A stretch of DNA of 64,000 bases, taken from assembly GCF_900323545.1 (NCBI RefSeq), contig NZ_OOHN01000008.1:2338932-2402931 (forward strand). The letters run 5' to 3'. Numbering within the stretch: position 1 is the first letter of the stretch; every line of letters starts with the position of its first letter. This document shows, in pieces, positions 10,410 through 63,324 of this stretch. The stretch is from Actinomyces sp. Marseille-P3109. Its GTDB lineage: Bacteria > Actinomycetota > Actinomycetes > Actinomycetales > Actinomycetaceae. The notes under the pieces were generated by a model. It ran no database searches. It saw only the letters and a list, made by a program, of their open reading frames with translations, and was not told the origin of the DNA. The translations under genes and the position numbers were made by a program.

Positions 10410-10417
10410 CCCTGACC

Positions 10418-10531
10418 TACTCCACGAACCTCGGGTCCCACTGGCAGGGAGTTGTCCGTACTGAACGAGCCCCGGGCCCTCGTGGAGTACACCCATCCCC
10501 CAAGCAGTAGACCCCGACCCTCGTGGAGTAC
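10418..10531. repeat. Three-copy CTCGTGGAGTA repeat with partial hairpin
   Basis: The motif TACTCCACGA at 10418 is the reverse complement of TCGTGGAGTA, which occurs again near 10480 and near 10520. The first two can fold into an imperfect hairpin with extra pairing between CCTCGGG and CCCGGG. It lies just past the carbonic anhydrase stop and could be its terminator. The third unit in direct orientation suggests a duplicated repeat element. Confidence 0.6.
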
Positions 10532-30351: not shown

Positions 30352-31185
30352 TCAGGCGCCGGCTTGCAGGCTTCTGAGGACCTCCTCGACGGCGGCCAGG
30401 GCGACGCCGGAGGCCTGGCGCAGGGAGTGCTGCGCCCGCCCGAGGTTGCCGCCGGCGGCCGGGGCGTCCAGGTAGGTCAGGGCGGCGACGGACACGCCCC
30501 GGCAGGCCAGGGCCATGGCCTCGGCAACGGAGTCGGTGACGGCGACGTCGGCACCCAGGGACACCAGGGCTCGAGCCTCGGCGGGACTCGGGCGCAGCGG
30601 GCCGGGGATGAGGGCGACGACGGCGCTGCCGCTCACTCCCCGCAGGCGCCCCAGGCGCTCGGCGAGGTTCGCGTCCCAGCCGGCGGAGACCATGCCGGTG
30701 GCCGGGAAGAGGGGGCCGCCGGAGAGGTTGAGGTGGTCGGCGACGACACGCACCTGGCCGGGCGCCGCATCGCCGGACCGGCCGCCGGCCATGTCACCGG
30801 AGCCGTGCAGCGGGGTGGCGCGCGTGATGAACAGGGCGGCGCGCAGGCGGGCGCCGCTGGCGATCCGAGCCAGCGCCGTCGTGCTGCGGGCGGACTCGCC
30901 CTCGTACAGGCTGGTGCGGCCGCGGGCGACGAGGACGCCGAGGCCACCGCGCTCGTAGGACATCAGGGCGTCCTCCTGGCCGGGGGCGCTCGGGGCATGG
31001 ACGCCGGGAAGGAAGGACAGGCGCACGCGGGCGGCAGGCCGTCCCCAGGCCTGGTCGAGGTCGCGCAGGAAGGCCGGTTCAGCGACGACGAGGAGGTCGT
31101 GGCGGGCGCGACCCGTGGCCAGGAGGATGGAGGCGCCATCGGGGTCCTCATCCCAGGTTCCTGGTGAGGCGGGCTGCTGGGCCAT
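30352..31185 (-). CDS. Purine-nucleoside-phosphorylase-family protein, diverged
   Basis: 277 residues starting ATG 31185 (MAQQPASPGTWDE) with GGAGAAC upstream. The class-II PNP landmarks are recognisable: GRTSLYEG, RVVADHLNLSGGPL, and ALIPGPLRPSPAEARALVSLGADVAVTDSVAEAMA. The usual GPxFETPAE segment, whose Glu binds the purine base, has become GPLRPSPAE. The region that normally supplies the base-binding Asn reads ALTYLD. It may use a different base or be inactive. Its first eight bases and upstream region recur at 33576-33608 as part of a rearrangement. Confidence 0.75.
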   Translation of the reverse strand: MAQQPASPGTWDEDPDGASILLATGRARHDLLVVAEPAFLRDLDQAWGRPAARVRLSFLPGVHAPSAPGQEDALMSYERGGLGVLVARGRTSLYEGESARSTTALARIASGARLRAALFITRATPLHGSGDMAGGRSGDAAPGQVRVVADHLNLSGGPLFPATGMVSAGWDANLAERLGRLRGVSGSAVVALIPGPLRPSPAEARALVSLGADVAVTDSVAEAMALACRGVSVAALTYLDAPAAGGNLGRAQHSLRQASGVALAAVEEVLRSLQAGA

Positions 31186-31210
31186 GGGTTCTCCTCGGAT
31201 GGGCCCGGGG
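31178..31210. repeat. Rearrangement repeat B, left copy
   Basis: The 33 bases here (TGGGCCATGGGTTCTCC and onward) are identical to 33576-33608. They cover the start codon and ribosome binding site of the PNP-like gene and run into the hrpB C-terminal fragment. They mark the left edge of the rearranged 5-kb block. Confidence 0.92.
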
Positions 31211-32938
31211 TGCTGCTCGCCCACGGACTGGGCGCGCGCCCCGCTGGCCCCGATCCCCGAGATCCTGTCCGCGGACCTCACCGGTGCGGCCCTGGAGCTG
31301 GCCGTGTGGGGCGTGCCCGACGGCGCGGCACTGGCCTGGGTGGACGAGCCTCCGGCCGCGGCGATGGCGGCCGCTCGGGAAACGCTGGAGCGCCTGGGGC
31401 TGGCCGGCGCCGACGGCGTGACTCCCCTGGGTCGGGCGGTGGCCGGGCTGCCGGCGCCGGTGCGCGCGGGCCGGGCCCTGCTGGCGACGGCGCCGATTCT
31501 GGGGGCACGGCGGGCGGCTCGGGCGACGGCTCTGCTGACCGCCGACCTGCGAGCCCCCGGCGGGGACCTGACGGCCCTGGCCCGGCAGGTGCGCGGCGGC
31601 GGGGCGGGGTCGGGGGTCTGGAAGGCGGAGGCGCGCCGCCTGGAGCAGGCCTGCCGGCGTGCCGTCTCCGCGCATCCCGAGCATCCCGGCACTGCGAGCG
31701 CCGCCCCTGAGGCGTCGGGGGCACTGGGGGCGTCGGGGTCCCCGGCCAAGAGCCGCGGCCAGGACGCCGAGCCCCGGCCCGACGGCGTCGGCGGCAACGT
31801 TCCTGAGACCGTGGCCGGTGAGGCCGCCGGGGCGCACGATCTGGAGGCCTCAGTGGCTCTGGTGGCAGGGACGGCTCAGCCCCAGTGGATCGCCCGGCGG
31901 CGTGGGCCGGCGCCTCGGGCCGGGCAGGAGGCGCAGTACGCGAGCGTCGCCGGGACCGGGCTGCGCCTGGCTGCGGGCTCGGCGCTGGCAGAGTCCGAGT
32001 GGCTGGCGGTGGCCGGCGTCGACCTGACAGCCGGGCGCGGGGACGCGCTCATCCGCGCCGCGGCGCCCCTCGATGAGCTGGCGGCGCTGGAGCTGGCCGG
32101 GGCCTGGCTGGCCCAGGAGGAGCGCACCGTGTGGGACGGTGGGCGGCTGCGCACCGAGCGCGTGCGCCGGCTGGGGGCCATCACGCTCGCCGCCACCCCG
32201 GGGCCGCCTCCGGGACCGCAGGCGGTGGCGGACGCGGTCGTCGAACGGGTGCGCGCCAAGGGAGCCGATGCGGGCCTGGTCGTACTGCCGTGGGACGAGG
32301 AGGCCCGGAGCCTGCGCGCACGGCTGGCCCTGCTGCACGAGCACCTGGGCGAGCCCTGGCCGGATATGAGTGATGCGGCCCTGGAGACCCGGGCCGAGGA
32401 GTGGCTGGCGCCGGCGGTCATGAGCCTGGTCGGGCAGGGCGGCGGGTCGGCCGGGGAGGCGGCGTCGGGCGCGGGGAGCAGGCGCTTCAGCCTGGAGCGG
32501 CTGGATGTGGCCGGAGCGCTGCGGGCACTTCTGCCGTGGCCGCAGGCGGGGCGCCTGGACGAGTTGGTGCCCGAGCGACTCGAGGTCCCCTCCGGCTCAC
32601 AGGTGCGGGTGGACTACACCTCTACAGGCGGCGGCTCCACCACTGCCAGCGATTCCACCGGCGCCGGGCAGGCGGGTCGGCCTGTGCTGGCGGTGCGAGT
32701 CCAGGAGTGCTTCGGCTGGGCGACCACGCCGCGGATCGTGGAGGGCCGGGTGGCGGTGCAGCTGCACCTGCTCTCGCCGGCGCGCCGGCCAGTGGCCGTC
32801 ACCGACGACCTGGCCTCCTTCTGGGAGCAGGGCTACCCGCAGGTGCGCGCCGAGATGCGCGGCCGCTACCCCAAGCACGCCTGGCCCGAGGACCCGTGGA
32901 ACGCGCCCGCCACGAGGGGGACCGGACGACGTCGGTGA
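31196..32938 (+). pseudogene. hrpB: HrpB-type ATP-dependent helicase, C-terminal fragment
   Basis: The frame carries everything after helicase motif VI: RMGPGCC, LAPIPEILSADLTGAALELA, a winged-helix/ratchet region (ERLGLAGADGVTPLGRAVA) and the HrpB-specific C-terminus. The latter is seen as LDELVPERLEVPSGSQVRVDY, RVQECFGWATTPRIVEGRVA, LLSPARRPVAVTDDLASFW and RGRYPKHAWPEDPWN. No motor motifs I-VI are present. The matching N-terminal half is at 35092-36279, downstream instead of upstream. The open frame extends into the start region of the PNP-like gene but has no real start. The fragment cannot act as a helicase. Confidence 0.9.
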
Positions 32939-33093
32939 GTGGGAGTGAGGATGATCCGAGGGGGCATCCGGGGGACGGCGGGCGACAGGTGCCGCAGAGG
33001 GCCGGCACCACCGAGAAACCCGAGGAGGCCCGAGGAGGCCCCCACGACTCCGGCTGACCCCGGCGCTCTCAGGACGACCGGCTCAGCGACGAC

Positions 33094-33552
33094 TCACCAC
33101 GTGGAGGCGTCCAGGCGGCTGAAGCGGAAGCCGGTGGGGTTGTGCTCGGTGTCGGGATCGGCGTCGGGCACGACGTACCCGACGATCTGGAGGTTCCAGG
33201 TACCGCGCCCGCCCCACAGCGTGGCCGTGGTGCGGGTGCGGCCGCGCACCACCGGGAAGCCTGTGATCGTGTCGGCCTGGACGGAGACCACCTCGTGGGC
33301 GTGGTAGCGCATGGCGCCGGTGTCGATGTCCCCGAGCCACTCGATCTTGGGCTGGGGGTAGCCGGTCATGTGGGTCAGGACGCAGTCGTCAGTCAGCAGG
33401 GCGTCGATCGCCTTGGTGTCGCCGGCAACCATGGCGTCGCACAGGAGGGCGTAGAGGTCGGCGGCCGCGTGAGGCGCGACCTCGGATGCGTAGGGGTGGG
33501 GGTGGGTCTGGGTGCGGGACAGGGTGCGGGATTCGTGGGGACGGCGACTCAT
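33094..33552 (-). CDS. SnoaL/NTF2-like protein
   Basis: 152 residues: AADLYALLCDAMVAGDTKAI, DALLTDDCVLTHMTGYPQPKIEWLGDI, then ADTITGFPVVRGRTRTTATLWGGRGTWNLQIVGY fit the nuclear transport factor 2 fold (DUF4440 or SnoaL-like). Such small proteins are often hydrolases or isomerases or steroid-delta-isomerase-like; no assignment is possible. The first codons and upstream DNA are duplicated at 36236-36289, so its native promoter lay beside the 36290 flank. It now sits against foreign upstream sequence. Confidence 0.82.
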   Translation of the reverse strand: MSRRPHESRTLSRTQTHPHPYASEVAPHAAADLYALLCDAMVAGDTKAIDALLTDDCVLTHMTGYPQPKIEWLGDIDTGAMRYHAHEVVSVQADTITGFPVVRGRTRTTATLWGGRGTWNLQIVGYVVPDADPDTEHNPTGFRFSRLDASTW

Positions 33553-33608
33553 GGGTCAAGGGTAGATCCCGACATTGGGCCATGGGTTCTCCTCGGATGG
33601 GCCCGGGG
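33522..33608. repeat. Abutting repeats A and B: junction of a duplicated block
   Basis: Bases 33522-33575 (A, 54 bases) are identical to 36236-36289, and 33576-33608 (B, 33 bases) are identical to 31178-31210. The two abut without a spare base. That is the signature of a block's right end joined to its left end, as in a tandem duplication or circle. Confidence 0.93.
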
Positions 33609-33785
33609 CGGGCGGAAGGGCGGGGACGATGACCGGCACGGGGGCACCGGTCAGGGTGGGGCGAAGTTTACGCGAAGATGTCGGGGCGCGCCGCCGGTCC
33701 CAGCCGGTCCCAACGGCTCCAGCCGACTCCGGGCGGTCGCGGTCAACTGTCGCCCGTCGCCTGCCGCGGAGAGCTGCGGCGACAT

Positions 33786-34289
33786 CTACATGGTGCGATC
33801 GAAGTAGATGTTCGCCCCAATGAGACCGAAGACCTGAAGGCACAGGACGATACCGACGACCGGCTCCATCCGGCCCCCGAAGGCGCCTACGGGGACAGCG
33901 ACAAGGTTTCCGATGAACCCGACGACGCCTACCAGCGCCCAGGCCCGCCGCGAGGCGGCCCTGTCCCGTTCGTCCTCCCGATTCTCGAGTTCCCGGACGA
34001 AGAAGGTGTCGTATCCGAACCTCTTGGCAACAAACAGGGCGACGAGCGCCAGCATTGCGGCCGTCCCCCCGCTGGCGGCGCCATAGAGGAAGCCGTTGCG
34101 GATCGGGATCGTGAAGGTGGCCACCCACAGGAGGAGCACGATGACGATGGCGGACGTCATGCCTGCGGCGGCGATCTGCCGTGGCACGGCGGTCATCGGG
34201 CCTTTCCGCGCTTTCGGCGTCGAGCCGGAGGAGGACGAACCGGCGGTCGGGGTGGAGGTAGGGGTGGGCGTGGGATCTGACTCAGACAT
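33786..34289 (-). CDS. Small membrane protein of unknown function
   Basis: 167 residues. A Thr/Ser/Pro-rich N-terminus is followed by four hydrophobic segments (AAAGMTSAIVIVLLLWVATF, AASGGTAAMLALVALFVAKR, AWALVGVVGFIGNLVAV and VVGIVLCLQVFGLIGANIYF). A charged loop lies in the middle (RELENREDERDRAASRRAW). It overlaps the stop of the XRE regulator gene upstream by 8 bases, a pairing typical of small membrane proteins under an HTH regulator. Function unknown. Confidence 0.75.
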   Translation of the reverse strand: MSESDPTPTPTSTPTAGSSSSGSTPKARKGPMTAVPRQIAAAGMTSAIVIVLLLWVATFTIPIRNGFLYGAASGGTAAMLALVALFVAKRFGYDTFFVRELENREDERDRAASRRAWALVGVVGFIGNLVAVPVGAFGGRMEPVVGIVLCLQVFGLIGANIYFDRTM

Positions 34290-34479
34290 GGAAGATCTCC
34301 TCGACAGTGGTCTCGAAGTAGCGGGCGATGGCGATGGCGAGGGGAAGGGAGGGGTCGTACTTGCCCTTCTCGATGGAGTTGACGCTCTGTCTGGACACGC
34401 CCAGGGCGGCTCCGAGCTGGGCCTGGGTGAGGCCGCGGGCCTCGCGCAGGCTGCGCACGTCGTTATCCAAGGCGATCAT
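34282..34479 (-). CDS. XRE-family helix-turn-helix regulator
   Basis: A 65-residue, single-domain Cro/C1-type DNA-binding protein: NDVRSLREARGLTQAQLGAA, LGVSRQSVNSIEKGKYDPSL, then LAIARYFETTVEEIFHV. ATG 34479 is used; GGAGG directly abuts it, so the in-frame GTG at 34494 is an alternative. It is translationally coupled to the downstream membrane protein gene. A cluster of TTGACA words lies upstream and is the probable autoregulatory site. Confidence 0.9.
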   Translation of the reverse strand: MIALDNDVRSLREARGLTQAQLGAALGVSRQSVNSIEKGKYDPSLPLAIAIARYFETTVEEIFHV

Positions 34480-34521
34480 CCTCCGAGTGGACACACACCC
34501 CACGAGAGGATGTCGTGTTTG

Positions 34522-34563
34522 CTTGACATGTCTAGTGTGCTTGACAACATCCACCATGTCAAG
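34522..34563. promoter_or_regulatory. TTGACA repeat cluster, probable XRE operator
   Basis: CTTGACATG at 34522, CTTGACA at 34540 and the inverted CATGTCAAG at 34555-34563 lie between the divergent XRE and 34633 genes. TTGACA also matches a -35 box, so operator and promoters may overlap and couple both transcripts. Confidence 0.55.
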
Positions 34564-34632
34564 TCTGCTTCACACAACAGCTTTATTGGATGCTGTGTGC
34601 AAGAAGAGAAGAGCGACGCCTAGCATTCAGTC

Positions 34633-35001
34633 ATGGCTGAACGAACCTTCGTCGTTAATGCACCGCTGGATCAGGCCCGGGTGGCGGTCTTGAACGTCTT
34701 CACCAGTGAAGGCTGGACCGTCTCCCCCTTCTCCGGAGACACCATCCAAATCTCCCGCGGCAAGAAGGGCATGTCCATCGCCTTCGGCGCGCTCATGGGC
34801 GATACCTTCTATCTTTCGCAGAACCTTCAGTTCGGGACCGGTCCTCGGGGCGAGACCCTGGTGCGCTACCTCTCCTCGACGGACTCTGCCTTCATCGGCG
34901 GGGCGATGGGCATGCACAAGTCCTTGAAGACGCACGAAGAGTACGTCGCCAAACTCGCCCAGGTCTTGCAGTCCCAGGGGATCCTCCTGGGCGTGCAGTA
35001 A
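34633..35001 (+). CDS. Small conserved-looking protein of unknown function
   Basis: 122 residues, soluble: TFVVNAPLDQARVAVLNVFTSEGWTV, then ISRGKKGMSIAFGALMGDTFYLSQNL and GETLVRYLSSTDSAFIGGAMGMHKSLK. The pattern of an N-terminal beta strand, a helix pairing with SEGW and a small hydrophobic sheet recalls polyketide-cyclase-like or DUF-type lipid-binding folds. I cannot place it in a family. It is divergent from the XRE gene. Confidence 0.65.
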   Translation: MAERTFVVNAPLDQARVAVLNVFTSEGWTVSPFSGDTIQISRGKKGMSIAFGALMGDTFYLSQNLQFGTGPRGETLVRYLSSTDSAFIGGAMGMHKSLKTHEEYVAKLAQVLQSQGILLGVQ

Positions 35002-35033
35002 CTTGCGCCCCCACGAGAACCTTTTTCTCACTC

Positions 35034-35091
35034 ACCGACATTTTCTTCACAGATGACGCGGCTCCGCGCATCCTGTGAAGAAAATGTCGGT
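35034..35091. repeat. Inverted repeat with 19-base perfect arms
   Basis: ACCGACATTTTCTTCACAG (35034-35052) and its exact complement (35073-35091) enclose a GC-rich 20-base centre that also pairs partly (GACGCGG with CCGCGC). It sits directly upstream of the hrpB start and downstream of the 34633 gene. It could terminate that gene or be a small palindromic element. Confidence 0.8.
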
Positions 35092-36279
35092 ATGACTCGA
35101 CCGACCGACCCCATCAGAGCACTGCTCGCCTCTCCCCCTCACCTGCCGGTGGTCGAGGTGCTGCCCGAGCTGCGCGAGCGCCTCTCCCTGGGTCTCACTG
35201 GGTCCGACGGCGTCGGCGCCTGCCTGGTGCTTACCGCACCGCCCGGCACCGGCAAGACGACGCTCGTACCGCCGCTCCTGGCCGACGTCCTCGCCGGCGC
35301 TCTTACCTCGGCCCCGGGCGCCGGGGCGCCGGACGGCGACACCCCGGGACGACGGCCCGGCCGCGTCGTCGTCACCCAGCCGCGGCGCATTGCCGCCCGT
35401 GCTGCCGCCCGCCGCCTAGCCGGCCTGCTGGGCGAGGAAGTCGGCGGCACCGTCGGTTACGCGGTGCGCGGGGAACGGCGCACCGGCCCGGACACCCGGA
35501 TCGAGATCGTCACCGCTGGACTCCTCCTGCGTCGCCTCCAACGCGACCCGGAACTGGTCGGCGTCGACGCCGTCATCCTCGACGAGGTCCACGAGCGATC
35601 CCTGGAGAGCGACCTGCTCCTAGCGTTCCTGACGGACGCACGCGCCGCCCTGCGCGAGGACCTCACGCTCGTGGCCATGTCCGCCACGCTCGACGCCGAT
35701 CGCCTGCGCGACATCCTGGGCGGCACGCTGGAGGGTTCGGGCGGCACGAACGATGCAGGCCGGGGCCGGGCGCCGCTGGTGAAGGTTCCCGGCCGCCTCC
35801 ACCCCCTGGAGAAGGTGTGGGCGCCGCCGGGACGGACCGGTCGTCTGGGGCCGCGCGGGGTGCCGCGCGAGTTCCTCGCTCACGTCGCCGCCACCGTGGA
35901 GCAGGCCCTGGCCGAGCAGGACGGTGATGTGCTGGTCTTCCTGCCCGGGGCCCGCGAGGTCGACGACGTTGTCGCTCGCCTGCGCGCCGGCGCGCCCGGG
36001 AACGTGGACGTCCTTCCGCTGCACGGCCGCCTGCCCGCGAGCGCGCAGGACACGGCCCTGACCCCGAGCCCGGCGGGGCGGCGGCGCGTCGTGGTGTCCA
36101 CGAATGTGGCCGAGTCCTCGCTGACGGTTCCCGGGATCCGGGTGGTGGTGGACTCCACGCTGGCGCGCGAGCCGCGCCTGGACGTGGCCCGGTCCATGAG
36201 CGGGCTGGTCACCGTCGGGGTCTCGCGGGCGGCCGGGGTGCGGGATTCGTGGGGACGGCGACTCATGGGTCAAGGGTAG
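35092..36279 (+). pseudogene. hrpB: HrpB-type ATP-dependent helicase, N-terminal fragment
   Basis: From ATG 35092 the motor core is complete through motif V: Walker A APPGTGKTT, GRVVVTQPRRIAARAAARRLA, LDEVHERSLESDLLLA, VAMSATLDADRLRD, VLVFLPGAREVDDVV, STNVAESSLTVPGIRVVVDS. It stays homologous up to VTVGVSRAAGV, where motif VI (QRxGRxGR) should follow. Instead it enters repeat A, reading antisense 5' sequence of the SnoaL-like gene, and stops at 36279. Motif VI, needed for ATP hydrolysis, is absent from both fragments. The rest of the gene is at 31196-32938. Confidence 0.9.
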
Positions 36280-36289
36280 ATCCCGACAT
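36236..36289. repeat. Rearrangement repeat A, right copy
   Basis: 54 bases identical to 33522-33575, containing the first codons and leader of the SnoaL-like gene in antisense. It marks the right edge of the rearranged block and fuses to the truncated hrpB N-terminal fragment. Confidence 0.92.
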
Positions 36290-36414
36290 CGGACACATGA
36301 GGGACCAAGCGCTTTCAGCGCGCGTGGCAGGTGTGCAGGTCCTGCCGCATCTGACGTTGCAGCCCGTTTCACGGCGTTGCACTGGACGGCTCTCCGCGTG
36401 ACGAGAGACGGTCA

Positions 36415-36451
36415 GGGCCCGCCGGACAGCTCGTGGCTGCTCGGCGGGCCC
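36415..36451 (-). terminator. Hairpin after tRNA-Ser(CGA)
   Basis: GGGCCCGCCG (36415-36424) pairs with CGGCGGGCCC (36442-36451); inner GAC/CTG-type pairing extends it. It lies nine bases beyond the tRNA 3' end on the minus strand; no T run is present. Confidence 0.6.
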
Positions 36452-36459
36452 TCCCGTGG

Positions 36460-36548
36460 TGGCGGTAGCGCTGGGATTCGAACCCAGGGTGGCTATGAAC
36501 CACACAGACTTTCGAGATCTGCACCTTCGGCCGCTCGGACACGCTACC
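36460..36548 (-). tRNA. tRNA-Ser (anticodon CGA)
   Basis: Acceptor stem GGTAGCG/CGCTACC, discriminator G, encoded CCA at 36462-36460, T arm CTGGGTTCGAATCCCAG and a class-II variable arm. The anticodon loop CTCGAAA gives CGA, reading UCG. It lies beside tadA, a frequent neighbour. Confidence 0.96.
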
Positions 36549-39745: not shown

Positions 39746-39769
39746 CCCGCACCTGCCCGCACGCCAACG

Positions 39770-39863
39770 GGACGTTCCACGCGGGCGGGGACAGAATTCC
39801 TGTCCCCGACGGCGTCGAATGTCCCCGCCCGGTTTCAGTTGCACCCGGCCGCGCGGAACGTCC
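39770..39863. repeat. GC-rich nested palindrome between convergent genes (repeat family 2)
   Basis: Outer arms GGACGTTCC (39770) and GGAACGTCC (39855) enclose an inner perfect hairpin GGGGACAG...CTGTCCCC (39787-39807) and GGGCGGGGACA/TGTCCCCGCCC pairing. On the minus strand GCGCGGCCGGGTGCA lies between two GGGCGGGGAC boxes; the same order recurs at 63276-63324. It probably terminates both convergent genes. Confidence 0.7.
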
Positions 39864-39902
39864 CCGCCAGTGGCCGGGAGCAGTCGGAGAAGGCCGGGAG
39901 GG

Positions 39903-52744: not shown

Positions 52745-53434
52745 TCAATCACCCTTGTACCAGGCGACGGCGATTTGGACGCGGTCGCGCAGGTGGAGCT
52801 TGGCCAGGATGCGACTGACGTTGCGGCGCACGGAGGCGGGCTGCAGCACGAGCCGCTCGGCAATCTCCTCGTTCGACATCCCCTCCGCGATGAGCCGGGC
52901 CACGTCGAACTCCCTGGGCGTGAGTGCCCCGAACCTCTCCCGCAGCTCCTCGCGCTGCGCACCGGACAGCGCCCGCGGAACCCCTCGCGCGATGAGCTCC
53001 TTGGTGACGCGCGGCGTAAGCACCGCATCACCCTGCGCCACCGCCCGCACCGCCTGAGCCAGCTGCGCCGCGCGCACGTCCTTGAGCAGAAACCCCGACG
53101 CCCCCACCTCCAACGCCCCGAAGGCGTAGTCGTCCTCGTCGTAGGTGGTCAGCACCAGCACCTTCACCGTCGGGAACCGCCGCGCCATCGCCCGGGTCGC
53201 GCTGATCCCGTCCATGCCCGGCATGCGCACATCCATGAGCACGACGTCGGGCAGCCCCGACGACCGGTTCAGCTGCTCCAGGACCTCCAGCGCCTCCTGC
53301 CCGTCACCGGCCTCACCCACCACGCGCAGGTCCGGAGCCTTGCGGATCATGAGCGCCAGCCCCAGGCGCGCGTAGCGCTGGTCGTCCACGATCATGACCG
53401 ACGTCGGCCTCAACCCCTCCGATTCCACGCCCAT
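52745..53434 (-). CDS. NarL/LuxR-family response regulator
   Basis: 229 residues: receiver (VMIVDDQRYARLGLALMIRK, VVLMDVRMPGMDG with the phospho-acceptor Asp, VLVLTTYDEDDY, GFLLKDV) and LuxR-type DNA-binding domain (LTPREFDVARLIAEGMSNEE, IAERLVLQPASVRRNVSRIL). The product is of normal length and overlaps no neighbour. It follows its kinase by 3 bases and is probably translated with it. Likely regulates the FtsX/ATPase exporter at 56097-58276. Confidence 0.93.
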   Translation of the reverse strand: MGVESEGLRPTSVMIVDDQRYARLGLALMIRKAPDLRVVGEAGDGQEALEVLEQLNRSSGLPDVVLMDVRMPGMDGISATRAMARRFPTVKVLVLTTYDEDDYAFGALEVGASGFLLKDVRAAQLAQAVRAVAQGDAVLTPRVTKELIARGVPRALSGAQREELRERFGALTPREFDVARLIAEGMSNEEIAERLVLQPASVRRNVSRILAKLHLRDRVQIAVAWYKGD

Positions 53435-53437
53435 GCC

Positions 53438-54730
53438 TCAGCCCTCACCGCGAGTTCTCGGCACCGTCGCCGTCACCAGCCAGCCGCCGTCGGACTCGGG
53501 CCCCCAGTCCAGCGATCCTCCCGCCACCTCGATCCGGTCCCGCAGCCGCGGCAGGCCGGTCCCCTCCGCAGACCCACCACGGCAGCCGTCGTCTTCCCCG
53601 CCACTGTCACCCGAGGCGCCGTCGTTGCGAACCGTCACCGTCACCGCCGACTCGCCGTGGTCCCAGGACACCTGCACCTGCGACAGCACCGGGGCGTGCC
53701 GTACCGCGTTGGTGAGCGCCTCCCGGGTGAGCGCGAAGCACAGGTCGGCCTGGGCTTCGTCGTCGGCCCGCTGCCCGGTCTCGGTGAAGACGACCGTGAC
53801 GCCCAGCGACCGGACCCTGCCGACGACGCTCCTGATCTCATCCCAGGACCGGCACCCGGCGCCGTCCCGGTTCGGTGAGTCCCCGCCGTCGGCCAAGGCC
53901 CTGACCGCCCGGCGCGTCTGCTCCAGGCACTCCCGGGCCACCTCGTTGATGCCACCGAGCGCCTCATCGACCTCCGGGTCGGCGCTGCCGGCCAACCCCT
54001 CGGACAGAGCGATGATCGTGGTCAGGCCGTGCCCCACGGAGTCGTGCAGCTCCGCGGCGATACCGGCCCGGCTCACCGCGCGGTCGCGCTCGGCCCGAAG
54101 CACCCGGAAGCGCTCCCGCTCGGCTTTGGCGTCGGCTTGCGCCGCCCGCCAGTTCGCGACGCTGCGCGCAAGCATCGCCGCGATGGCCGTCATCAGGACG
54201 GCGACCACCTGGCTGAGCCACTCCTCCATCAGGATCCCGGGCGGGGCCACCAGGACGGCGCTGGCCGTCGCCATGAGACAGGCCGCACCGATGACCGCGA
54301 GGTGCTGCCACAGCGGGAGCCGGCTCACCGCGCTCCCCAGCGCCACCAGCACCGGGACGAGGAAGAAGTTGTTGAGCCCCAGTGCCGAGGCCGCCACGTA
54401 CACGGCGCACTCGGTCAGGAAGACCGCCAGCGGGTGCCTGCGCCGCGCAGTCAGGAGCGCCGTCGACCCAATGGCCGCCAGGATGAGAACCGTGAATCCG
54501 ATTCTGGTCGGGGCGATCCCCCCAACCAGGCCGCCGTCGCCGACGCGGCCGGTCAGCACCGCGCTGCCGATCATGCCGCCCTGGTAGGTGGCGCACAGGA
54601 TGAGAAGCAGCGTGGACAGGATGCCGGGGCCGGCCTGCGCAGGCGCCGGCTGGCGCACCCACTCCCCCAGCGTCCGCCAGGTGTTCCTCAGCCTCATCGC
54701 CGACGACGAGCCGCGCTCTTCACCGGACAC
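53438..54730 (-). CDS. NarL-type sensor histidine kinase
   Basis: 430 residues. Five or six membrane helices occupy residues 35-190. The HisKA_3 region is RAGIAAELHDSVGHGLTTII (phospho-acceptor His in LHD). The HATPase shows LTREALTNAVRHAPVLSQVQ, a degenerate-looking G region VRNDGASGDSGGEDD with an acidic Gly-rich insertion, then GTGLPRLRDRIEVAGGSLDW. Start ATG 54730 precedes a basic leader; MRLRNTWRTL at residue 12 is an alternative. Operon with the response regulator. Confidence 0.9.
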   Translation of the reverse strand: MSGEERGSSSAMRLRNTWRTLGEWVRQPAPAQAGPGILSTLLLILCATYQGGMIGSAVLTGRVGDGGLVGGIAPTRIGFTVLILAAIGSTALLTARRRHPLAVFLTECAVYVAASALGLNNFFLVPVLVALGSAVSRLPLWQHLAVIGAACLMATASAVLVAPPGILMEEWLSQVVAVLMTAIAAMLARSVANWRAAQADAKAERERFRVLRAERDRAVSRAGIAAELHDSVGHGLTTIIALSEGLAGSADPEVDEALGGINEVARECLEQTRRAVRALADGGDSPNRDGAGCRSWDEIRSVVGRVRSLGVTVVFTETGQRADDEAQADLCFALTREALTNAVRHAPVLSQVQVSWDHGESAVTVTVRNDGASGDSGGEDDGCRGGSAEGTGLPRLRDRIEVAGGSLDWGPESDGGWLVTATVPRTRGEG

Positions 54731-54855
54731 CAGCGTCCCTCCCTCCCCGTTGCGTCCGTACCCTACGCCCCGAGATCTGAACCCCGGCCGCAGTCAGCAG
54801 GCCGCAAGGCACAGTCGCGGCAAACACCGAATAACACGAGACAATTTCCGACGCC

Positions 54856-55443
54856 TCAGAGTGTCAGCTCCTGACGGCAAGCAGTAACGAAGGCATTCAG
54901 TTCCTCTTTCTCGAGGCGGGTGAGCAGGTCGTTGACAGACCATCGAGGCCCTTTACGACCAGTCCGGGATACCACTGTTGTGAACACGTTCCGAACCGCC
55001 TCGGGATACAGCCCCAGCACATCGAGAAGAAACTCGTCTGGAGATTGGGTGAACAACTCACCAGGAAGAGCGGCATCGTCGAAGTCCTTGAGGTTGAACG
55101 TGACGATGACGTCCGCGCGTCCCATGAGAGCCGCTGCGACGACGTGCCGGTCGCCAGGATCCGGAAGTCTGGGGACCGAGGGTAGAAGAGTCTCCCAACC
55201 CTGCACCTGGGCATCTGGCAGCGCCAGGTTCATCCGCCGCCGAAGTCGTTTGACGTAGCCACGGGACTCCTCCTCATCCCTATCGCGCAAGGCGTGCAGC
55301 CGAAGTACTGTTCTCTCAACCTCCTCCTCAATCTTCTCGCTCCACAAAGGCCTATAGACCTTCCGTACAGCAATCTCAAGAAGAACGTCTCGCAGTGTGC
55401 TGGGGACCAGCACACAGGCATCAAGTACTGCGGAAAACGCCAT
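54856..55443 (-). CDS. PIN-domain ribonuclease toxin
   Basis: 195 residues. PIN features: VLDACVLVPSTLRDVLLEIA (first acidic residue), the middle Glu-rich helix EKIEEEVERTVLRL, and LPDPGDRHVVAAALMGRADVIVTFNLKDF with the C-terminal acidic residues. It begins 3 bases past the stop of an HTH protein, the standard antitoxin-toxin order of PIN modules with an excisionase-like partner. Predicted to cleave RNA when unneutralised. Slightly lower GC than neighbours. Confidence 0.88.
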   Translation of the reverse strand: MAFSAVLDACVLVPSTLRDVLLEIAVRKVYRPLWSEKIEEEVERTVLRLHALRDRDEEESRGYVKRLRRRMNLALPDAQVQGWETLLPSVPRLPDPGDRHVVAAALMGRADVIVTFNLKDFDDAALPGELFTQSPDEFLLDVLGLYPEAVRNVFTTVVSRTGRKGPRWSVNDLLTRLEKEELNAFVTACRQELTL

Positions 55444-55446
55444 CGG

Positions 55447-55938
55447 TCAGTCCTGGGAGCGGAGATCCTTGAGGACTTGGCGAGCCTCGACGGGGTCATC
55501 GTCGTAGGCGCCCATCGCCTGAGCGTCGGCCACCATGTCCGACAGGGCCTCATTCGCCGCCCGACGCTGACGCTCACGGAATTCCAGCACGTCAGTGAGG
55601 AACAAGCGACGATGCCGTCTGACCTTCTCAAACGGGATCTCGCCGGCCTCCAACATCCTGACCAGCGTCGGCCGCGAGATGCCCAGCATGTCAGCCGCCT
55701 CCTGGGTCGTCAGACGTTGATCCTGCGGCGCCACCGTCACGGCCAATCCTCGACGCATCGCATCCACGACCTGAAGAAGGGCCTCAGCCACCGCGGGAGG
55801 GAGGTCAATCGTCTCACCATTGACGGTCAGCCGGGGCGTCGCACCGGAGGATGCCTCCAGTTCCGTCACTATCTCGGCAAAATGCCCGGCGACATCCTCC
55901 TCAGGAAGGTAGGTCTTGCTCTCAATCGTCACGGTCAT
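55447..55938 (-). CDS. Excisionase-like HTH antitoxin
   Basis: 163 residues from ATG 55938. The DNA-binding part is LTTQEAADMLGISRPTLVRM, LEAGEIPFEKVRRHRRLFLTDV, a MerR/excisionase-type helix-turn-helix. The N-terminal 85 residues (VNGETIDLPPAVAEALLQVV) resemble the segment found before this domain in chromosomal PIN antitoxins. The acidic tail (YDDDPVEARQVLKDLRSQD) probably wraps the toxin. Upstream DNA near 55950-56010 holds GTTTTGAGCGATTTGAG-like repeats, probable autoregulatory sites. Confidence 0.85.
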   Translation of the reverse strand: MTVTIESKTYLPEEDVAGHFAEIVTELEASSGATPRLTVNGETIDLPPAVAEALLQVVDAMRRGLAVTVAPQDQRLTTQEAADMLGISRPTLVRMLEAGEIPFEKVRRHRRLFLTDVLEFRERQRRAANEALSDMVADAQAMGAYDDDPVEARQVLKDLRSQD

Positions 55939-56096
55939 GGCACACTCCAACACTGCTGTTCGTTCACTGTTTTCGAGTTGATCGTTTTGAGCGATTTGAG
56001 TGTAAACCTCAGCAGGCGTCGACACAAGGCGAGGGCTGTCGCTTCTGCCAGACTCCTCGAACCCCAGGCAACCAACGGTACGACCCGATCACAACC

Positions 56097-57488
56097 TCAC
56101 TCGGCCGCCAGGACGGTGCCGATCGGGGTCCGGGTGGCGCCCCGGATCGGAGCAAGCAGCACCATAGCCAGGGCCAGAAAGGACAGGAGCGCCACCAGCA
56201 GCACCGGCCCGACGCCGGGGCGCACCACCAGCGGCAGCCCGGCCCTGGCGTAGAAAACAGCCTCGCCGACCGCCGTCACCGCCAGCGGCACGATCGAGAT
56301 CAGCAGCGCCGTCCCCACGTACAGGCCCGCCTCGATGACCACCTGCCGGCGCACGCCGCGCACCGTGCTCCCGGCGCAGCGCAATACCGCGAGCTCACGC
56401 TGCCGGGACCGGGAGGACATGCCGACAACGGCCACGGCCCCCAGCAGCGCCATCGCCCCGAGGATCGCCGCCAGCACCAGCGAGTCCACCTGGTTGATCG
56501 CCACGCTCAGGTGCGCCGCCTCCACCACCGCCTGCCCCGTGGCAAGACTGGTCGTGAGCGCCGCAGTGAAGGAGATCGCCAGGGCCAGCAGGCCGATGGC
56601 ACTCGCCGCCGAGGCACTGCGCCACAGCGCCGAACGGCGCGCAATGAGCCACGGCCCACCCAGCCGCGCCAACGGCGCCGACCACATCCGCAGCAGCCCC
56701 GGGATGAGCGCGGGTGCGAGCAGCACCACGAGGACCGCGAGCAGGAGGGACGCCAGGGTCGCCTGGCCCCCGCCGGTCGGCCACCCCTCCACCATCCGGC
56801 CGGGCCGGACCAGGACGGCCGCCACCAGCTGGCCGGCGCACGCCAGCCCCCACAGCCCCGCCGCGACCCACCGGAGCACACCCATGCGGCGTCGCCCACC
56901 CGGGGCCGCGTCGCGAACCGCCTCCACGGCAGGCGTCCGCACCGCGGCGCGTGCCGGGCCCACTGCCCCCAGGACCGCGACGGCGACCACGACCACCACG
57001 GTGAGCAGCAGCGTCGTCGGCGTCTGGGCGACCTCGATCCGCCCCATGCGCGCGGCCGCCAGGCGGGTGAGTACCGAGGCGAAGGGCTGGGCCGCCACCA
57101 TCCCCAGCAGGATCCCGGGCACGCAGGCCACCAGCCCCAGCACCGCCACGGTGGCGAGGACGGCGACGAGGACCTGCCGGGGCAGGGCGCCGGCGAGCCG
57201 CCACAGGGCCCAGCTCGTGCGCAGTGCCTGCACGCAGGACTGCCCGACGACAGCCACCACCGGGACCGTCACCATCGCGGTGTAGAAGGCGACCGAGACA
57301 CCCGGAACCGTGAGCTCGGCCGGGTCCACTCCCGCCGCCCACGCCGCAGCGACGACGTCGGGCCGGGTGACGGTCATGCGGTGCACCAGGCAGACGTTGA
57401 CGAGCCCCGCGGCGAGGGCCAGCACCGCCACCGTCCCCGACCAGGCCCGCCACTGGGCAGCCAGGGCGCGCAGGGTGTAGCGGGTCAT
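56097..57488 (-). CDS. FtsX-like ABC permease
   Basis: 463 residues: N-terminal helix WSGTVAVLALAAGLVNVCLV, large extracytoplasmic part, repeated FtsX helix blocks with the permease signature SRQRELAVLRCAGSTVRGVRRQV near residue 365, and a C-terminal helix bundle. It overlaps the upstream ATPase by 4 bases. Second copy of the FtsX/ATPase type in the window; similar in layout to 41029-42387 though diverged. Probably a peptide or lipid exporter partnered with the two-component system at 52745-54730. Confidence 0.87.
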   Translation of the reverse strand: MTRYTLRALAAQWRAWSGTVAVLALAAGLVNVCLVHRMTVTRPDVVAAAWAAGVDPAELTVPGVSVAFYTAMVTVPVVAVVGQSCVQALRTSWALWRLAGALPRQVLVAVLATVAVLGLVACVPGILLGMVAAQPFASVLTRLAAARMGRIEVAQTPTTLLLTVVVVVAVAVLGAVGPARAAVRTPAVEAVRDAAPGGRRRMGVLRWVAAGLWGLACAGQLVAAVLVRPGRMVEGWPTGGGQATLASLLLAVLVVLLAPALIPGLLRMWSAPLARLGGPWLIARRSALWRSASAASAIGLLALAISFTAALTTSLATGQAVVEAAHLSVAINQVDSLVLAAILGAMALLGAVAVVGMSSRSRQRELAVLRCAGSTVRGVRRQVVIEAGLYVGTALLISIVPLAVTAVGEAVFYARAGLPLVVRPGVGPVLLVALLSFLALAMVLLAPIRGATRTPIGTVLAAE

Positions 57489-58276
57489 GCCGCAGCTCCC
57501 GTCTGGTTGACGGCGGCCAGCAGCTCGTCGGGGGTGGCACCACAGCGGCGGTCGACAATGCGGCCATCGCGCATGATGAGCACGGTCTCCGCCAGGGCAG
57601 CGGCCCCCAGGTCGTGCGTCACGAGGACGACGGCGGCCCCATCGTCGGCCAGGCGCCGCAGCTCGGCCAGGACGAAGGCGGCCGAGCGGGTGTCCAGGGC
57701 CCCGGTGGGCTCATCGGCGAAGACGACTGGTGGACGGCGGTAGAGGACTCGGCCCAGGGCGACGCGCTGCTGCTCGCCGCCCGAGAGCGTCGTCGTGGGC
57801 GCATCGGCGCGCGCCTCCAGCCCCAGCCCGGCCAGGACTTCCCGCACCCTCGCCGAATCGGGGCGCCGGCCGGACAGAGTGTCACCGATCGTGATGTTCT
57901 CCCGTACCGTCAGGTAGGGCACGAGGTTGTAGGCCTGGAAGACGAAGCCCACCCGATCGCGGTAGAGCTCGGCCACCCGCGCCGCCGGGAGCCCGCCGAG
58001 GTCGTGCCCGAGGATCCTGACCCGGCCCGACGTCGCCGCCTCCAACCCGGCCAGGCACAGCAGCGCCGTCGACTTGCCCGAGCCGCTGGGGCCGACCAGC
58101 GCCGTCATCCGCCCCAGCATCATCGCGCAGGAGACGCCATGCAGGATCTCGATCGGTTCCCCACCGGGGGTCGGGAAGGACTTGCGCAGATCGCGCGCCT
58201 CGACAGCCGGCCCGACGGCGCTCATGCCGGCAGCGCCGCCCGCCCTGTCCGCACCGTCCCCGCCCCGAACCACCAT
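57485..58276 (-). CDS. MacB/LolD-type ABC ATP-binding protein
   Basis: About 263 residues from ATG 58276 (MVVRGGDGAD); ATG 58324 or 58225 are alternatives. Walker A GPSGSGKST, Q-loop FVFQAYNLVPYLTV, signature LSGGEQQRVALGRVLYR, Walker B PVVFADEPTGALD and H-switch VTHDLGAA are all present. Upstream partner of the overlapping FtsX permease. The ribosome binding site is weak for all candidate starts. Confidence 0.92.
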   Translation of the reverse strand: MVVRGGDGADRAGGAAGMSAVGPAVEARDLRKSFPTPGGEPIEILHGVSCAMMLGRMTALVGPSGSGKSTALLCLAGLEAATSGRVRILGHDLGGLPAARVAELYRDRVGFVFQAYNLVPYLTVRENITIGDTLSGRRPDSARVREVLAGLGLEARADAPTTTLSGGEQQRVALGRVLYRRPPVVFADEPTGALDTRSAAFVLAELRRLADDGAAVVLVTHDLGAAALAETVLIMRDGRIVDRRCGATPDELLAAVNQTGAAA

Positions 58277-58679
58277 GGATCTGACCGTCCTCTCATCCGT
58301 GAATCCGCTGGCACCATTGGACACCGTCGGGCGCCCGCGGTTTCAACCTAGGCGGCCGCGCCGGCTCCCGGACCCGCAGACCGCGAACTGTCCACAGATG
58401 ATGACAACGCCGGGCCCGCTGACAACGCGGCCGGCCGCACACATCGAGGACGTGCCTTCGCACCCAGGACGTGCCCTTCCCGCACACGACGACAGTCAGA
58501 CCCCAGTGATCTGTCGGAAGACGCAGTCCTCGTGGGACACGTACGTCCCCCGCCACGAGCAGCACCCCCAGCCATCATCAAAGACCTACAAATATTACTG
58601 TTTCGTTAGTCTATTTAACATAAGAGAACTCTCATGCTCACTTGTGGTCCCTCTAGGGATGGCTCGTGACAGTTGAGAC
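58277..58679. promoter_or_regulatory. Divergent regulatory region
   Basis: 400 bases between the exporter operon and the sensor-transporter operon. The segment 58585-58640 is AT-rich (TACAAATATTACTGTTTCGT, TCTATTTAACATAAG) and likely carries the rightward promoter. No ORF of substance, no recognisable riboswitch. Confidence 0.5.
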
Positions 58680-58829
58680 ATGAACACCTCACGCCGAATC
58701 CTCGCCCTGGCTCTGCTCATGCTCGTCCCGGTGGCGCTGGCGTTGGCCGCCGAGTTCATGGCCGTCGTCCCCGGCCCGCCCGCGCAGCCCAGCCCGGTCC
58801 ACCTCTCCTCCGCCGGAGAGGGGAGCTGA
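58680..58829 (+). CDS. 49-residue membrane peptide, in frame with the following kinase
   Basis: MNTSRRILALALLMLVPVAL then ALAAEFMAVVPGPPAQPSP: a single membrane helix with a short polar tail ending at TGA 58827-58829. The reading frame continues directly after this TGA into the kinase. It may be an independent small membrane protein, or the 5' end of a gene interrupted by a nonsense change. Confidence 0.5.
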   Translation: MNTSRRILALALLMLVPVALALAAEFMAVVPGPPAQPSPVHLSSAGEGS

Positions 58830-58892
58830 CTCCCCGCCCGGCTGCGCATCGTCGCCTGGACACTGTTCGTCGTCGCCCTGGGTCTGACCAGC

Positions 58893-60374
58893 ATGATCGT
58901 CTCCGTGCGTTCCACTCTCATGGCGGACATCTCCCGCTCCGCCAACACCGACGTCGCCCACGAGGTCAAGGAGCTCCAGAACTTCGCGGCCACCGGCGTC
59001 GACCCGCGGACCTCCCAGCCCTTCACCTCCACCACCCGCCTCATGGAGGTCTACCGGGACAGCCAGCAGCTCACCGACCGGGAAGCCACCATCATCTACA
59101 ACCACGCCACAGGCCAGGCCACCCAGGCCTCCGGCGCCTCCGCCCCGACCCTGAACCTGACCAGCACGGATCCCCTGTTCGTGAAACTGCTGCAGTCGCC
59201 GTCGGGCGCCACCGACTACGGCAGCGGAGAGGTCCGCTGGGCCCGGGTCGAGCTCGAGCCCAACGACCCTTCCCAGCACCTATCCGTCATCACCATGAGC
59301 TTCACCGCCTCGCGCGTGGACCAGATCAACGCCACGATCTGGCTCATGGTCGGCATCAGCGCGGCCGTCCTGGTCCTCACCGGCGTCGTCGGGCTGCTCG
59401 TGGCCCGCCAGATCCTCAGGCCCCTGCGCGACCTGCGCACCGCGGCCGCCTCCGTCTCCACCCAGGACCTCAACCGGCGCCTGCCCGTCAAGGGCCGTGA
59501 TGACATCGCCGGCCTGACCGAGGAGTTCAACGACATGCTAGACCGCCTCCAGGAGGCCTTCGACGGCCAGACCCAGTTCGTCCTGCGCGCTCACCAGGAG
59601 ATCTCCGGTCCCCTGGCCGTCTTGGACGCGCGCCTGGCCAGCCAGCCGGCCACCCGTACCGTCCTCCAGCAACGCGCTCAGATCGCCGAGCTGCAACGGA
59701 TCCTCGACGACCTCCAGTCCCTCACCCAGGCCGAACGGCGCGACTTCGCCCACCTCACTCCCGACGTCGAGGTCACCGAGCTGGCCCGCACCCTGCTCGA
59801 CGACGTCGAGGCCATGGCCCCGGGCCGCTGGAAGCTCGATCTGAGGGTCCGGGGCACGGCCACGCTCGACGTCGAGCGCGTGCGTCAGGCCACCGGCCAC
59901 CTCGCCCGCAACGGGCTGCAGCACGGCGACGGCCCCCTGACCCTCACCATCGCCCCCGGCACCGACGGCTACGGCCGCAGCGGGCTGGAGATCTCCGTGA
60001 CCGACGAGGGTCCGGGACTGGCCGACGACGACGTCGACTGGCTCTTCGAGCGCTTCACGCAGGGCGAGACCGGTGGTAGGCCGCGCGGCGCCGGGCTGGG
60101 CCTGGCCATCGTACGGGCCATCGCCGACGCCCACGACGGCACCGTGTTCGCCATCTCCGCCTCCGGCCAGGGGGCCACCGTCGGCCTGCGCATCCCGGCC
60201 GACAGTTCCTGGAACCTCTCCTCGGACCCCGATCCCGCCGTCGTCTCCTCCCCGGCCACCGTCCCCTCCTCACGCACCTCGGCGGACACGGCGCCCCGAG
60301 TGACCACCGGTGAGCCGGCGGTTGCCCACGACGACCGCGCGCATGACGCCTCGGGAGAGGAGGCCGGCTCATGA
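58893..60374 (+). CDS. HAMP/HATPase sensor kinase-like protein with degenerate H-box
   Basis: 493 residues as opened at ATG 58893, but homologous membrane-helix sequence starts earlier (LPARLRIVAWTLFVVALGL from 58830), right after the in-frame TGA. It has an extracytoplasmic sensor to about 150, a second helix (IWLMVGISAAVLVLTGVVGL), and HAMP (RPLRDLRTAAASVSTQDLNRRLP). The dimerisation box is FVLRAHQEISGPLAVL, where the usual phospho-acceptor His is Gln (His sits one residue early). ATP-binding motifs DEGPGL and GAGLGLAIVRAIADAHDG remain. No response regulator is adjacent; it overlaps the SLC13 gene. Confidence 0.82.
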   Translation: MIVSVRSTLMADISRSANTDVAHEVKELQNFAATGVDPRTSQPFTSTTRLMEVYRDSQQLTDREATIIYNHATGQATQASGASAPTLNLTSTDPLFVKLLQSPSGATDYGSGEVRWARVELEPNDPSQHLSVITMSFTASRVDQINATIWLMVGISAAVLVLTGVVGLLVARQILRPLRDLRTAAASVSTQDLNRRLPVKGRDDIAGLTEEFNDMLDRLQEAFDGQTQFVLRAHQEISGPLAVLDARLASQPATRTVLQQRAQIAELQRILDDLQSLTQAERRDFAHLTPDVEVTELARTLLDDVEAMAPGRWKLDLRVRGTATLDVERVRQATGHLARNGLQHGDGPLTLTIAPGTDGYGRSGLEISVTDEGPGLADDDVDWLFERFTQGETGGRPRGAGLGLAIVRAIADAHDGTVFAISASGQGATVGLRIPADSSWNLSSDPDPAVVSSPATVPSSRTSADTAPRVTTGEPAVAHDDRAHDASGEEAGS

Positions 60375-61942: not shown

Positions 61943-62070
61943 GACCGGCCGGCCCAGCGGCGTCGGACGGTCTCACTGCGGAACGCCATTGCCTCGTACC
62001 TCTCTGTTTCCCAACCACCCCCGCCATCTCCTGACACATCATGACAACCCAGTACTTCCGGAGGAAGATC

Positions 62071-63267: not shown

Positions 63268-63275
63268 ACCGACAC

Positions 63276-63324
63276 GGGCGGGGACACTCTGCGCGGCCGG
63301 GTGCATCCTCGAACGGGCGGGGGC
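63276..63324. repeat. Repeat family 2, second copy
   Basis: GGGCGGGGAC, then GCGCGGCCGGGTGCA, then CGGGCGGGGGC: the same order and near-identical spacing as the minus strand of 39819-39863. It lies nine bases past the glycerate kinase stop, between convergent genes; a further GGCCGGCCGCGGCCGGCC palindrome at 63322-63339 strengthens a terminator role. Confidence 0.75.

Follow-up and report, generated by a model that had tools for sequence, protein, structure and literature searches.

The window analysed here, a stretch of 64,000 nucleotides from the oral Actinomyces sp. Marseille-P3109, contains two adjacent segments whose order is exchanged and whose orientation is kept, an arrangement that cuts hrpB in two (Table 1). 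As the first-pass annotation had described, the C-terminal part of the gene precedes the N-terminal part. Pfam assigns the HrpB domains to two separate ORFs, with DEAD and Helicase_C in the N-part and HrpB_C in the C-part; the proteins P0121-P0124 carry the helicase core and HrpB_C in one chain. Both halves are open frames without stops. Their limits differ in part from those first proposed: for the C-half (31196-32938) the end holds, but alignment to relatives places the beginning of hrpB homology only at 31211, and for the N-half (35092-36279) the start holds, but hrpB ends at 36241 and the remaining ORF is read-through into repeat A. Motif VI, about 8 codons, is missing from both halves as had been reported, and the full loss is larger, at 47 bp or 16 codons. 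Searches of the strain's own assembly, using the block DNA or either half as query, found no second hrpB copy in the contigs with readable sequence, which are all except three small, all-N ones; weaker matches to the N-part are taken to be a related HrpA-like gene.

The ORFs of the block's small genes are unbroken. The left flanking gene has its start codon and SD-like sequence within repeat B, and a Pfam scan of 30355-31182 gave no match. No transposase or recombinase was matched by Pfam in any of nine scanned ORFs at the locus, and the 13 inverted-repeat pairs listed (at least 18 nt) all lie away from the breakpoints.

Table 1. Features of the rearranged hrpB locus, in window coordinates.
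Feature	Position	Strand	Remarks
Left flanking gene	30352..31185	-	277 aa from a putative ATG start after an SD-like sequence
Repeat B, left copy, end of left flank	31178..31210	+	Exact match to 33576-33608
Junction left flank / hrpB C-part	31210..31211		Without microhomology; from alignment to relatives
hrpB C-terminal part	31211..32938	+	575 codons, HrpB_C domain
SnoaL-like / DUF4440 gene, intact	33094..33552	-	Pfam PF14534, 2e-13; start codon inside repeat A
G-quadruplex motif across left edge of repeat A	33493..33540	+	Motif at most 30 bp away in 10/10 relatives
Repeat A, copy on hrpB C-part segment	33522..33575	+	Exact match to 36236-36289
Novel junction A/B, joining the ancestral block's outer ends	33575..33576		Without microhomology
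Repeat B, copy on segment X	33576..33608	+	Exact match to 31178-31210
G-quadruplex motif across right edge of repeat B	33599..33625	+	Motif at most 30 bp away in 10/10 relatives
Segment X small gene	33786..34289	-	167 aa; no Pfam match
Segment X HTH_3 regulator gene	34282..34557	-	Pfam
Segment X small gene	34633..35001	+	122 aa; no Pfam match
hrpB N-terminal part	35092..36241	+	DEAD + Helicase_C; stops short of motif VI
Microhomology, junction hrpB N-part / repeat A	36236..36241	+	6 bp
Repeat A, right-flank copy	36236..36289	+	Exact match to 33522-33575
tRNA-Ser (CGA), right flank	36460..36548	-	

Comparison with close Actinomyces relatives establishes the ancestral order, which in all ten aligned genomes reads left flank, repeat B, small genes, hrpB N-part, hrpB C-part, DUF4440 gene, repeat A and right flank. 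The synteny check suggested earlier thus showed an intact hrpB and, after it, the SnoaL-like (DUF4440) gene in 10/10, and the left flank is collinear in every case. The window corresponds to this order with adjacent segments of ~2.7 and ~2.4 kb exchanged and 47 bp of hrpB gone. Across the genus, the N-part precedes the C-part in 37/37 other genomes that hold both sides of motif VI on one contig, and none of 48 other genomes carries both hrpB halves twice. Among the proteins listed as relatives of the C-part, 120/120 have the motif VI pattern. In three relatives with draft genomes, G022, G029 and G037, the match to hrpB begins at a contig start or spans contigs, though not at motif VI. In G017, a more distant member of the genus, hrpB is intact, and 6.4 kb upstream of it lies a partial copy of the start of the gene, 77% identical and with unrelated genes in between; this copy is old and its order is not rotated, and it indicates that local duplication of part of hrpB does occur in the genus. 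Near-identical intact HrpB proteins were found in metagenomes, which makes the split look private to this strain or to its assembly. The tail by which the N-part ORF reads through into repeat A, searched in four pieces as a marker of the rotated arrangement, occurs in none of the 240 proteins listed. One protein, P0076 (96% over 39% of the N-part), has only a middle HrpB stretch between unrelated ends and is uninformative on the junction. A second order difference, seen against G023 (window 52750-58434 versus 58558-63304), was dropped because the segment at 58.8-63.3 kb has a patchy distribution across the genus (7/25 genomes, this one included, match it at E <= 1e-100), so that gain at another site fits equally well.

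The scars at the junctions are short and precise. Repeats A and B are exact (54/54 and 33/33) and abut as first noted, and they are the sole exact direct repeats of at least 24 bp spaced 200-20,000 bp apart in the 64-kb window. Measured against the ten close relatives, A/B is the end-to-end junction of the ancestral block, again in agreement with the earlier account: the block has been opened at a new inner point within hrpB and its outer ends joined. At the junction between the hrpB N-part and repeat A, the microhomology is 6 bp relative to seven of the ten relatives and 1, 2 and 4 bp relative to the other three; 6 bp would be expected in 0.4-1.2% of cases under random pairing within 40 bp. 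Elsewhere, 20 sampled stretches whose repeat flanks were compared gave seven pairs of other exact short repeats, two of them adjacent, hence six places. Three (L166, L171:1333 and L174) have ungapped flank identity of at least 0.6 on one side and so reflect local similarity, as does L157, whose gapped flank identity on one side reaches 0.64 where the background does not exceed 0.59; L175 resembles a tRNA end, and L171:2932 is a 35-bp copy adjoining a quadruplex motif.

All three breakpoints carry a canonical G-quadruplex motif on the + strand in 10/10 relatives. One lies where repeat B meets segment X, one in the hrpB motif VI codons and one at repeat A's left edge. The motif within hrpB is seen in the relatives alone, as it is lost from the sequence of this strain. 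Window-wide, counting both strands and a padding of 10 bp, quadruplex motifs take up 1.0% of positions, a chance estimate that is post hoc, since the motif was spotted after the breakpoints were read. By a G4Hunter-type score, the local maxima rank in the top 0.4% of window positions at the end of B, the top 0.1% at the start of A, and the top 1.5% at the end of the N-part, the last computed on the rearranged sequence; the outer duplication edges are ordinary, at the top 16% for the start of B and the top 9% for the end of A. The presence of a quadruplex motif at each of three breakpoints points to a common cause. Among 86 such motifs in 464 kb sampled from this genome, none outside the locus is accompanied by a second exact repeat scar spaced more than 1 kb apart, in a scan that misses repeats shorter than 24 bp or crossing the ends of stretches. 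GC skew was too noisy to assign the replication strand; an origin near dnaA (C8:2601050) would suggest that the + strand serves as leading-strand template here, a point kept out of the evidence.

Because motif VI is missing and the protein is split, HrpB is probably inactive in this arrangement, judging from its sequence. A functional two-piece HrpB, with the two halves each produced and coming together in trans, appears hardly plausible: each half is open and free of stops, but a very recent break would equally leave the frames open, neither half contains motif VI, which helicases of the HrpB class require, and several other genus members lack hrpB or carry it in eroded form.

The reading we favour, with moderate confidence, is a real, recent and strain-private exchange of two adjacent chromosomal segments in a single step, in which breaks or template switches occurred at three quadruplex motifs. 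The chromosome would have broken, or replication stalled, at the three motifs, and the freed pieces (X with the hrpB N-part, ~2.7 kb, and the hrpB C-part with the DUF4440 gene, ~2.4 kb) would have rejoined in the opposite order. Fill-in of staggered ends on either side would leave the 33- and 54-bp duplications, and trimming within hrpB the 47-bp loss; alternatively, serial template switching among the three stalled sites may have produced identical scars. All three values arise naturally from a single three-break event. Against the exchange stand the lack of an independent record of the rotated order among the 240 proteins listed and the lack of microhomology at two of three junctions. Ku (PF02735) was found in 0/49 genus genomes and in 1/14 controls, B. 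subtilis, so classical end joining is unavailable. Quadruplex motifs are also sites where sequencing and assembly fail, and we share the first-pass annotation's view of misassembly as the main alternative. In that case the locus would have fallen into short contigs at the three motifs, with ends overlapping by 33 and 54 bp and missing 47 bp, and the two short contigs would have been placed in swapped order and joined without Ns, hrpB being intact in the strain. Local mis-ordering of contigs during scaffolding swaps order, keeps orientation and breaks at hard-to-read motifs, as at this locus, and is a frequent error with short neighbouring contigs. The two blunt junctions, the unique record of the arrangement beside near-identical intact proteins, and the three draft relatives with interrupted hrpB matches also fit, as do observations from a bird genome study, in which short-read assemblies under-represent quadruplex and GC-rich stretches and such stretches are tied to sequencing errors (PMC7757076). 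However, the sampled 464 kb contain zero N and no similar scar outside the locus despite their many quadruplex motifs, a single contig passes through three full-length 16S genes, and the assembly has a completeness of 99.98 and a contamination of 0.26. Assemblers join contigs via overlaps or Ns, whereas the three joins here have neither an N nor an overlap of useful length, the leftover overlaps are unequal in a way unlike k-mer overlaps, and one junction has microhomology. We regard an assembly error as a serious but less probable explanation.

The history first proposed as simplest, a tandem duplication (or circle reintegration) of a 5.1-kb block with an intact hrpB followed by a complementary deletion in each copy, is possible but not favoured. 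Its expected junction is exactly A/B, every segment fits, one deletion junction has the 6-bp microhomology, and G017 provides a local partial hrpB duplication elsewhere in the genus. However, two independent deletions must then stop no further than 33 and 54 bp from the ends of the block and no further than 47 bp from each other inside hrpB, a geometry that uniform random deletions reproduced in 7e-6 of simulated trials, under a crude model. None of the 48 other genomes has both hrpB halves in duplicate, and the G017 copy is old, partial and unrotated. This sequence of events thus seems improbable.

Several known systems resemble the locus in part. Circular-intermediate rearrangements in human segmental duplications convert the order A-B/C-D into B-A/D-C, and cattle translocations of this type are also mentioned there (PMC7450558). 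These share the rotated order, the outer ends joined inside, and small indel or microhomology scars, but as described there they are duplications at a distant acceptor site, whereas here the block lies in its own place in a bacterium with no full duplicate left. Tandem duplication-random loss, as outlined for mitochondrial gene order (PMC3283314), likewise changes order and leaves each gene once; at this locus nothing beyond 33 and 54 bp is left, at the breakpoints. Fork stalling and template switching, or MMBIR, is similar in placing several short-scar junctions in one locus, with microhomology at one, but two junctions here have none and the mechanism is putative for this organism. The locus differs from a scaffolding error in joins without Ns and without overlap. 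The one paper found to contain Actinomyces together with HrpB, each as a whole word, is a phage review.

Swaps of neighbouring segments without repeats are hard to account for in bacteria that lack Ku end joining. As a tentative generalization, held with low confidence, same-strand conserved quadruplex motifs may mark three break or stall points that were joined, allowing a Ku-less bacterium to swap kilobase segments in one step. Should the locus prove to be an assembly error, it would serve as a warning that quadruplex motifs can yield gapless and plausible gene splits. If the junctions are real, they provide scars resolved to the base pair at three conserved quadruplex motifs and make quadruplex-linked bacterial rearrangement directly testable; quadruplex-guided segment swapping, if true, would be a route to both gene-order change and gene splitting.

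The first-pass annotation of this locus, which placed the halves of hrpB in swapped order around two abutting repeats, holds with small corrections: the repeats are exact, and the domains fall on separate parts, DEAD and Helicase_C being matched by the N-part and HrpB_C by the C-part that precedes it. Repeats A and B abut at 33575/33576 and are the sole exact direct repeats of ≥24 bp, spaced 200-20,000 bp, across the window, which sits within a 3.09-Mb contig of a 3.15-Mb genome in 8 contigs. Immediately 5' of the hrpB start lies a near-perfect 58-bp palindrome (35034-35091); similar sequences at five further genome sites mark it as a dispersed hairpin repeat.

Coordinates of repeats, quadruplex motifs and partial copies (window positions unless a sampled stretch, L171 or L187, is named)
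Feature	Position	Strand or relation
Repeat A	33522-33575 and 36236-36289	exact copies, direct
Repeat B	31178-31210 and 33576-33608	exact copies, direct
G-quadruplex motif at the breakpoint between repeat B and segment X (B/X)	33599-33625	+
G-quadruplex motif at the repeat A breakpoint	33493-33540	+
35-bp repeat pair	L171 2932-2966 and 3159-3193	copy adjoins quadruplex motif
hrpB partial copy and intact gene, genus genome G017	L187 3958-4422 and 10348-10825	

The locus was aligned to 15 relatives (L039-L053). The ten closest (L039-L048) share the order left flank to 31210, 33576/33609 to 36241, 31211 to 33575, right flank; in all ten, hrpB is intact, with the N-part directly before the C-part and the SnoaL-like DUF4440 gene next, the arrangement for which the earlier annotation had proposed looking in relatives. 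Against these, the window has its two inner segments exchanged, the orientation of both unchanged. In L049-L053 the N-part likewise lies directly 5' of the C-part, with little DNA-level match to the small genes of segment X. The adjoining 36290-36460, from repeat A to tRNA-Ser, is a variable site next to a tRNA gene, short in the window and >1 kb longer in some relatives (e.g. L039, L041).

A survey of the hrpB halves in the genus Actinomyces covered 49 genomes, including this one. Tallied from the N-part and C-part search tables, N precedes C at close spacing in 37/37 other genomes with both motif VI sides on one contig, drawn from 48 and including two that look frame-shifted (G035, G036) and one that continues on a second contig (G037). 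The C-part match is absent in six of the remaining 11 (G012, G015, G027, G046, G047, G048); G029 has hrpB split over two contigs, G022 has only a C-part beginning at the contig start, and G032, G039 and G044 carry remnants, or a gene with its middle missing or unrecognised. hrpB is repeatedly lost or broken within the genus, and never in the window's manner among the 48 other genomes. Bearing on the rearrangement history, G017 has, 6.4 kb upstream of its intact hrpB and beyond unrelated genes, a partial copy of the start of hrpB at 77% identity.

In 10/10 close relatives, 53 bp lie between the counterparts of 36235 and 31211; repeat A shares six of them, which leaves 47 bp missing here. The loss amounts to 16 codons of hrpB, of which the first 8 are motif VI, bearing out the claim that this motif is gone from both halves. 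The break appears recent or restricted to this assembly, because near-identical intact proteins exist (P0121, from a cluster of 41 member sequences, 372/381 against the N-part and 563/575 against the C-part; P0123, 375/383 and 536/575), the motif VI pattern occurs in 120/120 C-part relatives among the matches listed, and the read-through tail pieces of the rotated N-part were found in 0/240 proteins among the matches listed. The identity of the repeat pairs at 87/87 bases and the lack of stops within either hrpB half agree with this dating.

Microhomology is 0 at the left flank/C-part and A/B junctions; at the N-part/A junction it depends on the relative taken as ancestor, being 6 bp for seven of the ten and 1, 2 and 4 bp for the remaining three, against an expectation of 0.4-1.2% for at least 6 bp when pairings are drawn at random within 40 bp. 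The window holds nine canonical G-quadruplex motifs on the + strand and four on the - strand, together covering, when padded by 10 bp, 1.0% of positions. Beside those at B/X and repeat A, a third overlaps, in relatives, the hrpB stretch missing here, and a + strand motif lies ≤30 bp from each of the three breakpoints in 10/10 relatives. By a G4Hunter-type score the B end ranks in the top 0.4% of window positions, the A start in the top 0.1% and the N end in the top 1.5%, and the outer edges of the two short duplications are unremarkable (B start top 16%, A end top 9%). The chance of a motif at all three sites, the cube of 1% or one in a million, is a post hoc estimate, the motif having been sought after G-rich breakpoints were noticed and local motif density being above the window average. 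The window motif at 36217-36254 is partly produced by the rearrangement itself.

On balance we lean towards a single three-breakpoint segment swap at quadruplex motifs. A single event, made by three breaks or by three switches of template, would exchange the two inner segments, each break leaving either a short overlap (33 or 54 bp) or a 47-bp gap, so small scars would require no coincidence. Ku was detected in 0/49 genus genomes (and, among 14 control genomes, in B. subtilis only), so joining would have proceeded by alternative end joining or replication template switching. The rotated order and short scars resemble those described for human segmental duplications formed via circular DNA intermediates (PMC7450558). 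The history first proposed, duplication of the block followed by complementary deletions, is less likely than the swap and indeed improbable: with one independent random deletion per copy, scars this small arose in 7 per million trials of a crude model with uniform ends.

Misassembly, already named as the main alternative, stays the main rival to the swap, at an appreciable though minor probability: two short neighbouring contigs placed in exchanged order would give nearly the same picture, and the assembly includes small contigs of 2-5 kb. Assemblers, however, rarely make joins without overlap and without N, and the joins at this locus show neither a usable overlap nor N. The 464 kb sampled (the window plus 20 stretches, ~15% of the genome) contain no N, and three full-length 16S genes are crossed by the contig. 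Short-read assemblies are poor in quadruplex and GC-rich stretches, as reported for a bird genome (PMC7757076), yet the 464 kb sampled here hold 86 quadruplex motifs and no second exact-repeat scar spaced >1 kb.

Other repeats and variable segments were also seen. Near position 2.253 Mb of the main contig, 35 bp within or beside a histidine-kinase-like gene recur as an exact second copy 227 bp away; this copy is absent in the five relatives aligned, and therefore looks like a templated insertion. A 41-bp sequence, seemingly a tRNA 3' end, occurs twice in stretch L175 (12693-12733 and 18791-18831, 6.1 kb apart), as at the ends of integrated elements. The intergenic 10416-10531 and 39769-39870, the latter matching in both orientations, have partial matches elsewhere in three relatives and are probably dispersed repeats. 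Segment 58840-63260 is patchy in the genus (7/25 genomes at E <= 1e-100, own counted) and, in G023, its order with the neighbouring segment differs.

The motifs at B/X and repeat A, both on the template strand, lie close to the starts of the left gene (in the ancestral order) and the DUF4440 gene, respectively; kept in 10/10 relatives, they are possible regulatory elements. In Xanthomonas citri, an hrpB mutant shows altered biofilm formation and motility, in a paper that treats the function of E. coli HrpB as not described at its time (PMC4804567). Here, judging from the sequence, HrpB should be inactive. Repeat B contains the start codon of the left gene, and repeat A the DUF4440 start codon, so that after the swap the DUF4440 gene would sit behind the left gene's upstream region, and both genes would have altered upstream regions, of which 25 bp stay native for the left gene and 23 bp for the DUF4440 gene.
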